Notes under the pieces: model-generated
Database searches by the model: none
What the model was told of the DNA's origin: nothing
What the model saw: the letters and a program-made list of their open reading frames with translations, nothing else
Position numbers and translations under genes: made by a program
Shown here: positions 8,748 to 41,313 of the stretch, piece after piece
Position numbering within the stretch: position 1 is the stretch's first letter
Layout of the letters: each line of letters starts with the position of its first letter
From: Chloroflexota bacterium
Lineage (GTDB): Bacteria; Chloroflexota; Limnocylindria; QHBO01
NCBI GenBank assembly: GCA_040902225.1
Contig: JBBDXT010000004.1
Coordinates: 54,060-118,059 of the forward strand
DNA: 64,000 bases
Direction of reading: 5' to 3'

Positions 8748-8823
8748 TGGAGCGGGAGACGAGGTTCGAACTCGCGACATCGACCTTGGAAGGGTCGCGC
8801 TCTGCCAACTGAGCTACTCCCGC
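8748..8823 (-). tRNA. tRNA-Gly (anticodon TCC)
   Basis: The minus strand folds as a cloverleaf. The acceptor stem is GCGGGAG/CTCCCGC, the D-loop is AGCTCAGTTGGCAGAGC, the anticodon loop is CTTCCAA with TCC in the centre, and the T-arm contains GTTCGAAC. The discriminator is T, and the CCA end is encoded in the DNA (8748-8750). The 5' end overlaps the last codons of the upstream HNH gene. Confidence 0.95.
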
Positions 8824-9458
8824 TCTGAGAGTCGTCCACGCCGGATGAGGGTCCGTGAGCGGTGGCAGTTGGCGCAGACGATATCGCACTTCGCCGCCTC
8901 CGCCAACATGCTCGCAATACCCGCTCGGCCAACCATCCGCGTAACACCGAAGCGCTTCATCGCCGGCTCGCGATGATCGAAGTCCATCGCACATGGAGGG
9001 AATCGCCTCCCGCAATCTGCACACGGCACATCGCGAAGCTGGTCGAGGAGCCCGGTCTGTTCTCGCCAGCGAGCGCGTTTGCGCTCGATGTATCTCGACG
9101 AGCCACGGAGGGGCGCAGGGCCGGTCACGCGTTCGACTTGCGCCGTGTGGGTGCGGAGTCGATGGCAATTCGCGCAGACGACGTCGCACTTGCCTACCTC
9201 AGACAGCAGACGCTCCCGCGACATCAGCATCGCGCGGCCAGCAGTCAAGCGGAACAACTTGTCTGCGGGATTTCGGTGGTCGAAGTCCATCTGATCGGGC
9301 CTGAACACGGTTCCACAGTCGGCACATGGTCCCTTACGAAGATTCCTCAGCATCTCTAAGGTCAAGGCCTGGCGGTCCCTTACGCGCTGAATCTCGCGCT
9401 GACGGTTTCGCCAGTAGTAGGTCACATTCGTCTGACGCTGGCTGGGGCGCTGGTGCAC
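8814..9458 (-). CDS. Tandem HNH-like zinc protein
   Basis: A 214-residue protein made of two copies of one module. Each has a CADCG zinc knuckle, a DFDHR core and a CD(V/I)VCANCHR second knuckle (first copy about residues 45-97, second about 140-195). CxxC...DHR...CxxC is the HNH/beta-beta-alpha-metal nuclease signature, so DNA binding or nicking is likely. The start chosen is GTG at 9458, because TATAAT (9465-9470) lies six bases upstream and the more upstream frame is antisense to the cupin gene. GTG at 9425 is the alternative. The stop codon TAG is formed by tRNA-Gly positions 8-10, so the gene ends inside the tRNA. Confidence 0.75.
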   Translation of the reverse strand: MHQRPSQRQTNVTYYWRNRQREIQRVRDRQALTLEMLRNLRKGPCADCGTVFRPDQMDFDHRNPADKLFRLTAGRAMLMSRERLLSEVGKCDVVCANCHRLRTHTAQVERVTGPAPLRGSSRYIERKRARWREQTGLLDQLRDVPCADCGRRFPPCAMDFDHREPAMKRFGVTRMVGRAGIASMLAEAAKCDIVCANCHRSRTLIRRGRLSERE

Positions 9459-35708: not shown

Positions 35709-36554
35709 CTACCCGCCCACCAGGAACGGCAGCAGGTAGTGCGGCGAGCGACCGCTGAAATTCAGGAAGGTGGCGGCGGCAACGAAGGCCACGAACAGGC
35801 CGATGACGGCCCAGTCTGATCGACCGTAGCGCAGTTCGCGCAGCCATGTGCGGCGCTGCACGCCAAAGGCGCGCAGATCCATGGCATCGATCGTGTCCTC
35901 CGCTCCGGCGATCGAGCCCACCGTGACGGGGACGAGGATCGGTGCGGCGCGGCGCAGCCTGCTGATGAGCCCGCCCTTGCGAGCGGTGGGGTCATACCCA
36001 CGAACACGTTGCGCGTCAATTGTCTCGACGACCTCCGCCGCCAGGGTTGGAATGAACCGGATGGTCAGGTCGACCATCACCGCGATCCGATCGCCGATGC
36101 CCAGGCGTCGGAGGGCGACTCCCATATCGCCGGGCGCGACGGCGTAGGCCACCGGAAACCCCACCGCCGCGAATGCGAGGTAGCGAACCAGCTGGCTGGC
36201 GCCCAGGCTGATCCCCTCTGCGGTCAGTTCGGCTCCGAACGGCGGGATCGTCAGGATCACGTGGGTCGAGGCGCCCGCGAAGGTGCCGGATTGTCCACCG
36301 GTGATCAATGCGTTGACGAGGGCGAAGACCGCGATCACCACGATCAGGTACGTCCACTGCAGGCGGACCGAGCGCCACGGGATGCCGGCGGTGGCGTAGT
36401 AGCCAAGGGCCAGGATCAGCACGACACCCAATTGGCGCACATCTCGCAGCTGGATGGCCCCGAACACCACGAGGAGCGGTGCGAGGATCAAAACGCGAGG
36501 GTCCCGGCGTGAAAGCCAGGACCCTCGCCCGAGATAGGGGAACGCAGCCCGCAT
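35709..36554 (-). CDS. ecfT: ECF transporter transmembrane T component
   Basis: A 281-residue membrane protein with about six hydrophobic segments and two coupling helices carrying the Ala-Arg-Gly-type signatures (AQRVRGYD and MDLRAFG), which contact the two ATPase units of energy-coupling factor transporters. It follows the S component by 23 bases and is last in the operon SAM hydrolase, EcfAA', EcfS, EcfT. Confidence 0.85.
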   Translation of the reverse strand: MRAAFPYLGRGSWLSRRDPRVLILAPLLVVFGAIQLRDVRQLGVVLILALGYYATAGIPWRSVRLQWTYLIVVIAVFALVNALITGGQSGTFAGASTHVILTIPPFGAELTAEGISLGASQLVRYLAFAAVGFPVAYAVAPGDMGVALRRLGIGDRIAVMVDLTIRFIPTLAAEVVETIDAQRVRGYDPTARKGGLISRLRRAAPILVPVTVGSIAGAEDTIDAMDLRAFGVQRRTWLRELRYGRSDWAVIGLFVAFVAAATFLNFSGRSPHYLLPFLVGG

Positions 36555-36577
36555 CGTTCAGCTGGCTGCAGTCATGG

Positions 36578-37156
36578 TCAGCGTCCGAGCTGCTCGCGAA
36601 GCGGCTCCCACGCATACACCAGGATCGGCGTCACGACGGCCGCAGCAATCGAGTTGCCGATCACGGTTGGGATGTACTCGGTGGTGAGGATCGTGTTGAA
36701 ACCCAGCTCGGGCTGGATGATCAGCTCGATCCAGATGAAGAGGAACCCGATGACCGTGCCGACCACCCCAGCAACCGCTGAGGTCACCGCCCTGCTGTTC
36801 AGGGTCGTCATGCGGCTGGCCATCCAGAACGGGAAGAGGCCCGCTACCAGTCCGGCAAGCCCGCCGGCCACGCTCCACCACCACGAGCCAAACGCGCTCC
36901 CGTAGGCCAGCTGATCTCCCAGGGTGTTCCCGACGAAGCCCACCAGAAAGCCTGCAAGTGGGCCGAAGGCGAAGCCGAAGAACGTGACCAGGCCGAACTG
37001 CGGGCGAATGTTGACGTTCTGGGTTCCAGGGATCTGGATGGCAAATGTCGCCCAGTTGAGAACCGCGTACAGCGCAGCGCCGATCGCCGAGTAGACGATC
37101 ACACGCGTGGTCAGTGACCAGGCCCCATCGGGCTTTTCCATGCTCATGGTTGTCAT
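36578..37156 (-). CDS. ECF transporter substrate-binding S component
   Basis: A 192-residue membrane protein with six hydrophobic segments in the pattern of ECF S components. Identifiable features are RVIVYSAIGAALYAVLNWAT, the NVNIRPQFGLVTFFG loop and GPLAGFLVGFVGNTLGDQL. It is closest in appearance to the general S-component family that includes riboflavin-type transporters (PF07155-like), but the ligand is not deducible. The neighbouring SAM hydrolase suggests a nucleoside-, methionine- or cofactor-related substrate. Confidence 0.8.
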   Translation of the reverse strand: MTTMSMEKPDGAWSLTTRVIVYSAIGAALYAVLNWATFAIQIPGTQNVNIRPQFGLVTFFGFAFGPLAGFLVGFVGNTLGDQLAYGSAFGSWWWSVAGGLAGLVAGLFPFWMASRMTTLNSRAVTSAVAGVVGTVIGFLFIWIELIIQPELGFNTILTTEYIPTVIGNSIAAAVVTPILVYAWEPLREQLGR

Positions 37157-37188
37157 AGGTCTCCTCTGCCTCCCTCGTGGTCAGGCGC

Positions 37189-38862
37189 TCAACCGAGCGC
37201 CTGACCGATCTCCCCCGCCTCCCTCTTTGACCTGGCCACGATCCAGCCTGCAAGCTCTTCGGCGGCCAGGAATGACCCGGTCCTGCTGCCCCACTCCGTG
37301 TTCGCCTCCATCAGCGATGTGTAGCGGAGATTGCATGCGGTCCAGCGATCGCGGTCCGCGATCACCTCCAGTGGCGGCCCGTCGGCGACGATTCGACCGT
37401 CGCGCATCAGCAGGATTCGATCGGCGTGGGCCAGTGCCAGGTCTGCATCATGCGTCACGAAATAGACGCTTTCGAGTCCCTCGATCCTCTCAACCTCCTT
37501 CATGAACCCCGTTGCGCTCCGATGGTCCTGCCCCGAGGACGGCTCGTCAAGCACCAGCGTGCGTGGCTCAATGGCCAGCGCTACCGCGATCGCCAGGCGC
37601 TTCTGCTGCCCGAACGACAGGGTAAGCGGTGGCCGCGACTGGATATCCGGCTCGTCTGCCAGGTTGACGCGTGTCAGGGCATCGGTCACCAACGAGTCAA
37701 AGCGGGCAGGGTCCCTTGCCAGGTTGATCGGTCCGAACAGGATCTCGTCGCGAACGGTGCGAGCAAAGAGCATCTGGGATGGATTCTGGAACACGTAGCC
37801 GAACGTGCCCGCCAGGTCGGCGACGCTGCGGCCGGCGGTCGGCTCCCCGTCCACGACGATCTCGCCATGCATCGTCTGGATGAGGCCGATGGCGGCCTTG
37901 AACAGCGTCGTCTTGCCGGATCCATTTGGTCCGAGCACGGCGACCGTCTCCCGCTTGCCGAGCGACGCGCTGACCTCGTGGAGGACCTGCCTGCCGTCGT
38001 AGCCGGCGTCAACCGCTGACCACTCCAGTCGTGCGGGTCCGGCGTCCATACCCTTGGCCACGGCTCGCGACGCAGCCGCCGCCCGATGCTGCTGCCCAAT
38101 CGCACGCTCGAGCACGATGGCGAAGGGAAGCTTCACGCTCGCAGGATCGGCCATGGCCAGAAAGCCCTCCACCCCGCCGAGGTAGTGCGGCGATCCATCC
38201 TCGAGGTAGAGCACGCGATCCGGCAGGGCGTCGAGGACGTCCTCGACCCGGTGTTCGACGATCACGACGGCCGTGCCGTTGTCAGCCAGCCGTCGCACCA
38301 GCGCCAGGAGGCGGTGCGCAGCAGCCGGATCGAGGTTGGCCAGCGGCTCGTCGAGGACCAGCAGGCGCGGCTGCAGCATGAGCGCGCCGGCGATCGCCAG
38401 CTGCTGGCTCTCCCCACCCGACAGCTCGTCGGTGGTCCGTGAGGTGAGATGGTCGATGCCGCTCGCCGCCGCGAGCTCCACCAGGCGCCGACGAATCTCT
38501 GCCCTGGGGACTCCCAGGTTTTCCGGACCGAAGGCCAGCTCGCCCTCAACCGTGGATGCCACGAGCTGCTTGCGCGGATCCTGGAGAACCGTGCCCACCA
38601 GCAGGGCGAGGTCGCGGAGTCGGAGGTCAGCTGTGGCCCGGCCGTCGATTGCCACGCGACCTGAGAGCTCGCCTCGGTACGCGTGCGGGATCAGGCCGTT
38701 GATGGCGCGAATCAGGGTGGACTTGCCGCAGCCGGAGGGTCCAGCCACCAGGAGCACTTCACCTGCCTGGACGGTGAACGAGAGGTCCCGAATCGCCGGC
38801 TCGGTGGCGCGTCGATAGCGAAAGGTGAGGGATTCGACCTCGAGCAGCGGGCCGTCGGCCAT
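37189..38862 (-). CDS. ecfA: Fused ECF transporter ATPase (EcfA-EcfA')
   Basis: A 557-residue protein with two complete ABC domains in one chain. Domain 1 (residues about 1-250) has GPSGCGKST, LSGGESQQ and LVLDEPLANLDP. Domain 2 (about 285-520) has GPNGSGKTT, LSFGQQKR and LVLDEPSSGQD. In most ECF systems these are separate subunits, and the fusion fixes their stoichiometry. It energises the S and T components encoded downstream. ATG at 38862 is four bases after the SAM hydrolase stop; the longer frame is antisense. Confidence 0.9.
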   Translation of the reverse strand: MADGPLLEVESLTFRYRRATEPAIRDLSFTVQAGEVLLVAGPSGCGKSTLIRAINGLIPHAYRGELSGRVAIDGRATADLRLRDLALLVGTVLQDPRKQLVASTVEGELAFGPENLGVPRAEIRRRLVELAAASGIDHLTSRTTDELSGGESQQLAIAGALMLQPRLLVLDEPLANLDPAAAHRLLALVRRLADNGTAVVIVEHRVEDVLDALPDRVLYLEDGSPHYLGGVEGFLAMADPASVKLPFAIVLERAIGQQHRAAAASRAVAKGMDAGPARLEWSAVDAGYDGRQVLHEVSASLGKRETVAVLGPNGSGKTTLFKAAIGLIQTMHGEIVVDGEPTAGRSVADLAGTFGYVFQNPSQMLFARTVRDEILFGPINLARDPARFDSLVTDALTRVNLADEPDIQSRPPLTLSFGQQKRLAIAVALAIEPRTLVLDEPSSGQDHRSATGFMKEVERIEGLESVYFVTHDADLALAHADRILLMRDGRIVADGPPLEVIADRDRWTACNLRYTSLMEANTEWGSRTGSFLAAEELAGWIVARSKREAGEIGQALG

Positions 38863-38866
38863 CGGC

Positions 38867-39706
38867 TCAGGCAGGCTCGAGTCGCACGGGGGTGTCGAGA
38901 TCGAGACCAAGCTGCTCGGCGGCCGATCCGAGGTTGACGGCCAGTGCCGGCCCGGCGTAGTCGGCATCCTCGAAGAGGAGTGGCGAGCCGACCGCGACGT
39001 CCGCGAAGGTCGCCACCCACGGCACCTTCACGCGTGCCGCATGGTGCGCGCGGCGCGCCGGAAGGACGAGGTCGAACCAGCGGCCGCGTTCCATCTCGCC
39101 GAAGGCGGTGACCAGGTCCGAGGTCTCGCCCGCGAGACGACAGTTGCCGAATGCGTCGATGAGCAGGACCGACGTGTCGAGTCCGCCGTCGCGGGGCGTG
39201 GCTATCGGCAACTCGAGCTGTGTAATGTCGGTCGGGTCGAGCGTGGGGCCGACCGTTTCGAATGGCGTGCCACCGGCGAGGTGTGCCGCAACCGGCGCGA
39301 AGATGTCGCGCCCGTGGAAGGTATGCGACACACTCGGCAGCCAGAGTGCGCGGTTCTCGAGGGCTCGCGCCGCCACGATGCCACCCAGGGCATGAGCAGC
39401 CGGCACCAGCAGCCCGTTGTCAGGCCCTACCAGGTAGTCGCCGCGACCCACCTGCAGGGCAATCGGCCGACGGGCCGTGCCGACCCCCGGGTCGACGACG
39501 GCCACGTGGACGCCGATCGGGAAGTACGGGACGCTGCGCGCCAGCAGGAACGCCCCGTCCCGCAACGCGAAATGGCGGATTGCGTGGGTCACGTCGACCA
39601 ATCGCGCGTCGGGGGCGATGTCAAGCATCACGCCACGGCACACCGCTGGCGCGCTCGAGCCGACACCGAAGTCGGTCATGAACGAGATGAACGGTCGGTC
39701 GGTCAT
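38867..39706 (-). CDS. S-adenosyl-L-methionine hydrolase (adenosine-forming), DUF62
   Basis: A 279-residue DUF62 protein (SAM hydroxide adenosyltransferase), which splits SAM with water or hydroxide into adenosine and methionine. Family motifs are ISFMTDFGVGS, VVDPGVGTARRP (catalytic Asp and Arg), GPDNGLLVPA and FHGRDIFAPVAAHLA (catalytic His). TAGCAT seven bases before ATG 39706 suggests that the ECF operon begins here, 29 bases after the beta-CASP gene. Context implies a link between SAM breakdown and an imported or salvaged compound. Confidence 0.85.
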   Translation of the reverse strand: MTDRPFISFMTDFGVGSSAPAVCRGVMLDIAPDARLVDVTHAIRHFALRDGAFLLARSVPYFPIGVHVAVVDPGVGTARRPIALQVGRGDYLVGPDNGLLVPAAHALGGIVAARALENRALWLPSVSHTFHGRDIFAPVAAHLAGGTPFETVGPTLDPTDITQLELPIATPRDGGLDTSVLLIDAFGNCRLAGETSDLVTAFGEMERGRWFDLVLPARRAHHAARVKVPWVATFADVAVGSPLLFEDADYAGPALAVNLGSAAEQLGLDLDTPVRLEPA

Positions 39707-39735: not shown

Positions 39736-41256
39736 TCAGCGCAGCTGGACTGTCTCCAGGTAGGCCGGCAGATGAGCCTCCAGCCCCAAGGAACGGATCC
39801 GTGTGGCAAAGGCCTCGGCCGCATCGGGGTCGCCATGGGTGACGAACACTCGCTTCGGCTTGCCGTCGCCGCCATTGGCGCCGCCCGCCTTCGCGAAATT
39901 GCCGAGCCAGTCGTCGAGCTCGTGCTTATCGGCGTGCGCGGAAAAGCCCGAGATCACGCGCACCCGGCACTTGATCTCATACGCCACACCGTCGATCTTG
40001 GCCGCCTTGGCGCCCGATTGGATGTGACGTCCGAGCGTCCCCTCGCCCTGGTAGCCGATGAACAGCAGCGTGCAGGCGGGGTCCGGCAGGAAGTCCTTGA
40101 GGTGATGCATGATCCGCCCGCCGGTGAGCATCCCGGAGCTGGCGACGATCATCAGCGGCCGCGGCTGGGTCCTGATCCCCTTCGACTCGTCAACCTCGTT
40201 GGTGTAGGTCTCGCCGGGATAGGCGAGCGGGGATTCCCCGGAGCGCAGCAGGACGGCGGTCTCCTCGTCGTAATCCTCCGGGTGACGGAGATACACGTCG
40301 CTGGCGCGGCTTGCCATGGGGGAGTCGAGGTAGAGCGGCAGGCGCGGAATGCGCTGGTTGCGATGGAGCTCGTCGAGCACCCAGACCAGTTCCTGCGTGC
40401 GCCCAATCGCGAAGCTGGGGACCAGCAGCACCCCGCGATCGGTGGCGACCTCGTTGATCGCCGTCGCCAGCTCTTCGATGGCCTGCTCGTGCGGCGCGTG
40501 CTCGCGGTTGCCGTAGGTCGACTCGACCAGCACGAAGTCGCCGTGGCTGATTGGCGTCGGGTCGCGCAGGATCGGCGTCTCGTCGCGCCCGAGGTCGCCG
40601 GAGAAGACGATCGTGGTTTCGGCCGCCCCCTCGCTGATCCGCAGCTCGATGATCGACGAGCCGAGGATGTGACCTGCATCACGAAAGATGGCCGTGACAC
40701 CGTCGAGCACCTCCACCCGGGTGTCATAGCCAACCGGCCTGAACTGGGTCGCGGTCTGCTCGACGTCGGCCATCGAATAGAGGGCGACGCGCGTCATCGT
40801 TGTCCCCTCGGCGGGCGCCGCTCGCAGCCTGGCGGGCATCTCGGCGTTGTTCTCGACCGCGGCCACCTCACTGGCCAAGTCGGCATCGTGCGTGGCCGCC
40901 TGGTCCGGGTGCTTCCTGCGCCAGCGCGATTCGGCCTCTTCCTGGAGCTTGGCGGCGTCGCGCAGGACGATCTCGGCGAGGTCGGCGGTGCCCGAGGTGG
41001 CGTAGATCGGTCCGCGGAAGCCCGCCTTGACCAGGGCCGGGATGCGGCCGCAATGGTCGAAATGGGCGTGGGTCAAGAGCACGGCATCGAGGGCCGCGGG
41101 CTCAAAGGCGAACGGCAACCGATTGCGGCTGACCTCATCCGGCGAGCCCTGGAACATGCCGCAGTCGACGACGATGCGGCGATCACCTGCGGTGACCAGG
41201 AACTGAGAGCCGGTGACCGTTCCCACGGCACCGAGGAACTGCAGGGTGATGCCCAT
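39736..41256 (-). CDS. MBL-fold beta-CASP ribonuclease
   Basis: A 506-residue metallo-beta-lactamase/beta-CASP nuclease. The zinc motif is THAHFDHCGRIP, the beta-CASP insert carries VESTYGNREH and LLVPSFAIGRTQELVWVL, and the final block holds SSGMLTGGRIMHHLKDFL and SGFSAHADKHELDDWL. It resembles bacterial CPSF/YSH1-type RNA exonucleases, without a KH domain. It probably takes part in RNA processing or decay. ATG at 41256 follows TACTCT by six bases, and it is divergent from ligC across a 57-base gap. Confidence 0.9.
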   Translation of the reverse strand: MGITLQFLGAVGTVTGSQFLVTAGDRRIVVDCGMFQGSPDEVSRNRLPFAFEPAALDAVLLTHAHFDHCGRIPALVKAGFRGPIYATSGTADLAEIVLRDAAKLQEEAESRWRRKHPDQAATHDADLASEVAAVENNAEMPARLRAAPAEGTTMTRVALYSMADVEQTATQFRPVGYDTRVEVLDGVTAIFRDAGHILGSSIIELRISEGAAETTIVFSGDLGRDETPILRDPTPISHGDFVLVESTYGNREHAPHEQAIEELATAINEVATDRGVLLVPSFAIGRTQELVWVLDELHRNQRIPRLPLYLDSPMASRASDVYLRHPEDYDEETAVLLRSGESPLAYPGETYTNEVDESKGIRTQPRPLMIVASSGMLTGGRIMHHLKDFLPDPACTLLFIGYQGEGTLGRHIQSGAKAAKIDGVAYEIKCRVRVISGFSAHADKHELDDWLGNFAKAGGANGGDGKPKRVFVTHGDPDAAEAFATRIRSLGLEAHLPAYLETVQLR

Positions 41257-41313
41257 CGGCGGAGAGTATGCGGGACCGACCATGCCCGGCACATGGCGCT
41301 ACGATCCGCGCGC

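Follow-up and report, generated by a model that had tools for sequence, protein, structure and literature searches.

The four-gene operon

The window, a 64,000-nucleotide stretch of Chloroflexota DNA, carries on its minus strand, from position 39706 to position 35709, four genes that read in the 5' to 3' direction DUF62, fused EcfA, S component and EcfT, with intergenic gaps of 4, 32 and 23 bases (Table 1). The initial annotation had described these genes as tightly packed, and all four were recovered with the support of Pfam and NCBIfam profiles. Both halves of the EcfA fusion score above the NCBIfam cut-offs for ECF ATPases, and a complete dedicated ECF module, made of S, T and two ATPase domains, is thus encoded side by side. 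A 14-pair hairpin followed by GTTTT just within the start of ecfT could be an attenuator or a chance occurrence; the scan that detected it returned 3 terminator-like sites where 2.2 were expected.

Table 1. Features of the DUF62-ECF locus in the window.
Feature	Coordinates	Strand	Evidence
DUF62 SAM hydroxide adenosyltransferase (predicted SAM hydrolase), operon gene 1	38867..39706	-	SAM_HAT_N (PF01887) 168 bits; SAM_HAT_C (PF20257) 33 bits; Asp72-Arg79-His131 present
EcfA fusion, two ABC ATPase domains in a single chain	37189..38862	-	Two ABC_tran stretches; TIGR04520 339 bits (cut-off 315); TIGR04521 333 bits (cut-off 330)
ECF S component, PF07155 (UPF0397 / 'ECF-ribofla_trS') family	36578..37156	-	PF07155 77 bits; S-component fold in model
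EcfT transmembrane component	35709..36554	-	CbiQ PF02361 64 bits
Beta-CASP metallo-beta-lactamase gene, 5' of DUF62, outside the transporter	39736..41292	-	tblastn to relatives; Pfam of L072 homologue
Hairpin at the start of ecfT	36495..36528	-	14 pairs, then GTTTT

The S component and its family name

The S protein matches PF07155 far above threshold (77.2 bits, cut-off 26.7), a family that Pfam and NCBIfam both call 'ECF-type riboflavin transporter', but it misses the NCBIfam riboflavin equivalog NF010182 (81 bits against a cut-off of 99); its earlier description as an S component of unknown ligand was right in substance. Among its residues, R51, N77, D81 and W94 are conserved. The AlphaFold2 model (pLDDT 93, pTM 0.88) has the ECF S-component fold. 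Its top Foldseek match is RibU (5kbw), and the nearest chains are ThiT (Z 16.1, rmsd 3.2 over 167 residues), PanT and RibU, solved S components to which the window protein is about 15-20% identical; a family missing among these fold matches is no sign that the folds differ. Being common to all S components, the modeled fold says nothing on the ligand. The window operon shares this fold and the A-A-T module with ECF-RibU, ThiT and other vitamin ECF transporters, but has its own fused ATPase and T gene, and neither vitamin genes nor a riboswitch. The conserved-neighborhood comparison proposed in the initial annotation disclosed, among the loci scanned, no vitamin genes recurring beside the S gene and no S orthologues next to a known vitamin pathway. 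The name 'riboflavin transporter' should be doubted for these PF07155 S components.

Other architectures occur in the family. Membrane domains of the PF07155 S type are fused to Ser/Thr protein kinase domains in L215 (8178-9797 and 10208-11926) and L230 (5828-6982), the latter with an additional HAMP domain, which suggests S-component-like sensors. A link between the S fold and sensor histidine kinases appears in the literature (a passage of PMC11109136); the fusions found here involve a different type of kinase. A longer S form of about 300-340 amino acids, matched by the profile in two blocks, lies within EcfA-S-T operons (L218-L225). In the sample of 400 genomes described below, this form (about 320 amino acids) mostly has no adjacent DUF62, with adjacency in G337 and G431.

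The DUF62 enzyme

Both domains of the window DUF62 protein exceed their Pfam cut-offs, and the residues of the catalytic triad were matched by motif. The triad is intact in every sequence with a letter at the site (118-119 of 119), tandem copies included. As stated in a passage of a review (PMC10491745), the His-Arg-Asp triad is confined to DUF62 proteins and lacking in halogenases, and the score for adenosyl-fluoride synthase lies far below the cut-off (TIGR04507, 57.6 against 400 bits). StDUF62 and PH0463, (R,S)-SAM hydrolases, likewise have both domains and the triad; the window protein differs from them in its genetic coupling to an importer and in scores below both curated NCBIfam equivalog cut-offs for (R)-SAM hydrolases (NF058624, 159.5 against 350 bits; NF053629, 115.5 against 470 bits). 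By sequence it is a predicted SAM hydrolase. The initial annotation had the enzyme destroy SAM, which calls for one qualification: a DUF62 protein that has been studied favors the (R,S) epimer, though a later study questions whether acting on it is the protein's physiological role (as reported in part of PMC12120602).

Two tandem DUF62 genes, both with the full triad, share one ECF operon at several loci (L108, L113, L114, L117, L120, L122, L125, L132, L149, L159 and L177; also L128 and L146). Of these loci, L149 is from the cultured Leptolinea tardivitalis. Perhaps there is one copy per SAM epimer, or one copy acts on another sulfonium substrate.

Methionine auxotrophy as the reason for the operon was ruled out in the window organism by a full-length MetE (open frame of 737 amino acids), MetH giving only a weak match (E 1e-5). 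Given MetE, the unit would help the cell to scavenge and not be its sole methionine supply.

Conservation in Chloroflexota

Named genomes were scanned, and the best 80 loci among the 243 relatives found were considered, all Chloroflexota by title. DUF62 lies within 52 of these 80 loci: directly 5' of EcfA on the same strand in 48, of which 11 have two tandem copies, and elsewhere in the locus in four, on the opposite strand in two of them. EcfA-S-T without DUF62, with at least 1.1 kb of upstream sequence present, was found at ten loci; the sequence ends too early at another ten, and eight have neither EcfA nor DUF62. The arrangement recurs at identities to the window S protein that drop to about 35% across these best 80 loci, and is far from chance. 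Among 25 genomes whose loci have no directly upstream DUF62, 14 gave no PF01887 match, an absence that is uncertain as most are drafts; eight of the 14 form a single lineage with common synteny, a pattern suggesting that the hydrolase was lost and the importer retained.

An even sample of 400 Chloroflexota genomes of at least 80% completeness gives a fairer rate than the best-80 set. The S profile matched 95 of them and PF01887 matched 271. Of 41 genomes with a strong S match (E < 1e-50), DUF62 is adjacent in 17 (G396 included), elsewhere in 17 and not found in three, while four were left unassigned because the genes are split over contigs (G001, G045) or come without coordinates (G143, G447). 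The association with DUF62 that the initial annotation predicted for other genomes is thus frequent and not universal (52 of the best 80 of 243 loci; 17 of 41 adjacent in the even sample). All but one of the 17 genomes with DUF62 elsewhere belong to one family (code f21), mostly of large genomes. EcfA-S-T is present in the six genomes of this family that were inspected, and no recurrent vitamin or methionine gene lies beside it in those six. In L026 (genome G005) the chromosomal slot of the window operon has an S gene alone (8790-9326), flanked by the beta-CASP and helicase genes; DUF62, EcfA and EcfT are missing there, and PF01887 was not found in that genome.

DUF62 itself often occurs without an importer across much of the phylum. 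Nineteen regions were chosen around DUF62 matches, and 17 were usable, the gene caller having given no DUF62 label in L237 and L242; an ECF set is present in one (L251, chosen for its known ECF genes), an ABC set in none, and gatB-secG upstream in five. This tight gatB-secG-DUF62 order, seen in genomes from several families (L232, L247, L248, L249 and L250), is a housekeeping setting of DUF62; its reading as a third importer type, a symporter with a small subunit, was ruled out by Pfam and NCBIfam. Because DUF62 is commonly importer-less in the phylum, the importer link is a lineage-bound specialization and not the general role of DUF62.

Exchange of the ECF transporter for amino-acid ABC importers

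In 12 relatives without ECF genes, the genes that come after DUF62 on its strand encode a family-3 solute-binding protein, an HEQRo-type permease and an ATPase, the contig ending inside the ABC set in some of them. Judged from its components, this set (SBP_bac_3, HEQRo permease, ATPase) is a polar-amino-acid ABC importer. Such PAAT importers occupy the place of the ECF transporter behind DUF62; they are absent at the window locus, and their architecture of binding protein, permease and ATPase is unrelated. Fifty-five relative loci were sorted into 15 with ECF, 11 with ABC, 21 with neither (in five of these, L083, L089, L097, L101 and L104, DUF62 lies at a contig end or close to one) and eight without a DUF62 label; L103, added later, is the twelfth ABC locus. 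A link of L080 and L081 to an ECF transporter was ruled out, the ATPase there adjoining a thiamin pyrophosphokinase gene and another CbiQ. The beta-CASP gene 5' of DUF62 is common to the window, six ECF relatives and three ABC loci (L069, L072 and L073), and was found by tblastn in L026 as well. One chromosomal slot thus holds either importer.

In the LAO-binding protein, Ser72, Arg77, Thr121 and Asp161 are the residues that hold the alpha-carboxylate and alpha-amino groups of the amino acid. Ser72, Arg77 and Asp161 (LAO numbering) are kept in all 12 DUF62-linked binding proteins, and Thr121 in 11, with Ser in the remaining one. Genes for two DUF62-linked binding proteins lie at 4115-5038 in L088 and 7403-8326 in L078. 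Residue 30, Asp in LAO, is Glu in all 12; acidic residues at this position are common in the binding-protein family, and the Glu is for that reason not taken as proof of a cationic side chain in the ligand.

A quick tree of DUF62 proteins was built from 119 sequences, reduced to 103 after dropping contained duplicates and those shorter than 180 amino acids. At least seven changes are required on it to account for the ECF and ABC labels (84 rows, the 19 with neither importer left out). A single specialized clade of ECF-linked DUF62 is therefore unsupported, and repeated swaps or losses of the importers are probable. The Enterococcus DUF62 sits on a very long branch of this tree, and its placement is unsure. 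The simplest account of the swap is that both importers serve a single ligand, an amino acid.

The Enterococcus operon and its T-box leader

On both Enterococcus faecium plasmid records with this S type (at least 99% identity), DUF62, S, fused ATPase and EcfT also form one operon, in the order DUF62-S-A-T against DUF62-A-S-T in Chloroflexota. The window proteins are 30% (DUF62), 27% (S), 31% (A) and 26% (T) identical to their Enterococcus counterparts, and genes for IS1216 transposases flank the operon of one record (L200) on both sides. The same four-gene block, diverged and reordered, thus occurs in both groups, which suggests that the four genes are retained, or move, together. DUF62 was absent near S-A-T in Lactobacillus amylolyticus, Cetobacterium and Vibrio, within the stretch read of one record each. 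In Escherichia coli, DUF62 is found in 2374 of 5426 complete genomes, so its presence varies inside one species; in the genome inspected (L203, 6923-7825) yigE and uvrD flank it, and there is no importer.

A T-box leader precedes the Enterococcus operon (110.5 bits, gathering score 93). Others precede the neighboring Enterococcus permease-mmuM (mmuP-mmuM) pair (100.1 bits) and a lone Listeria DUF62 gene with no adjoining importer (107.4 bits); DUF62 can thus belong to a methionine regulon with no importer linked to it. All three have the specifier region AA-A-AUG-G and the antiterminator bulge UGGU. By the T-box rules as we understand them, AUG combined with UGGU denotes tRNA-Met, whereas reading the specifier as AAU (Asn) would call for UGGC. 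The choice of frame rests on these rules and on one internal control, the leader of permease-mmuM (homocysteine methyltransferase); no further T-box that could serve as a control was found in 200 kb of a Listeria record.

Rfam revealed no regulatory RNA, and hence no methionine-type leader, near the window operon, and none near the operon in 11 relatives, 13 Anaerolineae loci and 10 further S loci. The only SAM riboswitch found (L159, 10422-10533) lies about 2 kb beyond EcfT, and riboswitch control of the Chloroflexota operons was rejected, nothing having been detected near those scanned. We infer that regulation in Enterococcus informs function in Chloroflexota.

A methionine-regulated ECF transporter of Firmicutes, Mts, was reportedly described by Rodionov et al. 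in 2009, and its S components presumably belong to PF07155. Mts and the E. faecium operon are alike in that an ECF importer is tied to methionine by regulation, and the latter, in which a PF07155-type S component is combined with a Met T-box, seems to belong to the Mts kind. The E. faecium and Chloroflexota sets differ from Mts in having DUF62 as first gene, and the Chloroflexota sets also in having no recognized leader RNA and the order A-S-T instead of S-A-T. 'Mts' is used as an annotation name for a methionine-regulated ECF transporter of Firmicutes in a passage of PMC5408102.

Function of the enzyme-importer unit

On balance, the four genes probably constitute a methionine-salvage unit, in which the transporter would bring in a methionine-family compound, perhaps SAM, and DUF62 would release methionine. 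The ECF transporter would import a small methionine-family compound with an alpha-amino-acid group, such as SAM, S-methylmethionine or methionine, and cytosolic DUF62 would split SAM into methionine and adenosine, perhaps with a preference for the (R,S) epimer, which accumulates as SAM ages. We infer both the ligand class and import as the direction. The product of DUF62 (methionine), the T-box (methionine) and the replacement importer (an amino acid) converge on methionine supply, and this points to a methionine-family ligand, not to a vitamin or adenosine. Conservation as a unit, the Enterococcus Met T-box, the ECF/ABC swap and the intact triad count in favor of salvage; S-A-T sets without DUF62, importer-less DUF62, MetE in the window genome and the lack of a leader RNA in Chloroflexota count against it. 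In its more specific form, which we put forward only tentatively, S is a SAM importer, and Chloroflexota and plasmid-bearing Enterococcus take up extracellular, largely (R,S)-epimerized SAM, which DUF62 cleaves to methionine and adenosine.

The importer could also carry plain methionine or a precursor, DUF62 being co-expressed only so that methionine is regained from SAM that has aged inside the cell, two activities with a common purpose and different substrates. We regard this as rather unlikely, even though the AUG specifier of the Enterococcus T-box and the importer-less Listeria DUF62 behind such a leader both suit it, and plain methionine would suit the amino-acid ABC importers no less than SAM. 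The repeated tight pairing is more directly explained by a substrate link between importer and DUF62, which favors SAM as cargo; prototrophy through MetE lessens the need for a methionine importer, but equally for any other methionine source.

Import of riboflavin or another vitamin, with DUF62 as a neighbor without functional link, is improbable. The name of PF07155, the presence of RibU and ThiT among the nearest folds and the S-A-T sets found without DUF62 speak for it, but the fold shared by all S components is no argument for riboflavin, the riboflavin equivalog cut-off is missed (81 against 99), and neither vitamin genes nor riboswitches recur beside S in the loci scanned. The Met-type T-box in Enterococcus and the exchange of ECF for amino-acid ABC systems in relatives also stand against it. 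The initial annotation had proposed an uncharacterized salvage or adenosine-based route, of which the salvage half is supported by the conservation, the Enterococcus block and the importer swap. Uptake of adenosine or another nucleoside, with DUF62 in an adenosine route, could draw on adenosine being one product of DUF62 hydrolysis (as given in a passage of PMC10491745). Such a route is very improbable, because in the replacement binding proteins (12 of 12) the Arg and Asp that clamp an alpha-amino-acid group, which nucleosides lack, are retained, and because the Enterococcus T-box reads a methionine codon.

Implications

The enzyme-importer unit is real, conserved and little described, a new combination of known parts. 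Among the matches listed, no literature links an ECF transporter to DUF62 or SAM hydrolase, and none on bacterial SAM uptake concerns, by title or start of abstract, an ABC or ECF importer of SAM. For these PF07155 proteins, 'riboflavin transporter' is a poor guide, and the importer partner, the two unrelated importer types and the Met T-box narrow the question to a few methionine-family candidates for S. Should S import SAM, it would be, to our knowledge, the first ECF transporter to carry a sulfonium amino acid, and part of the DUF62 family would gain its missing physiological role.
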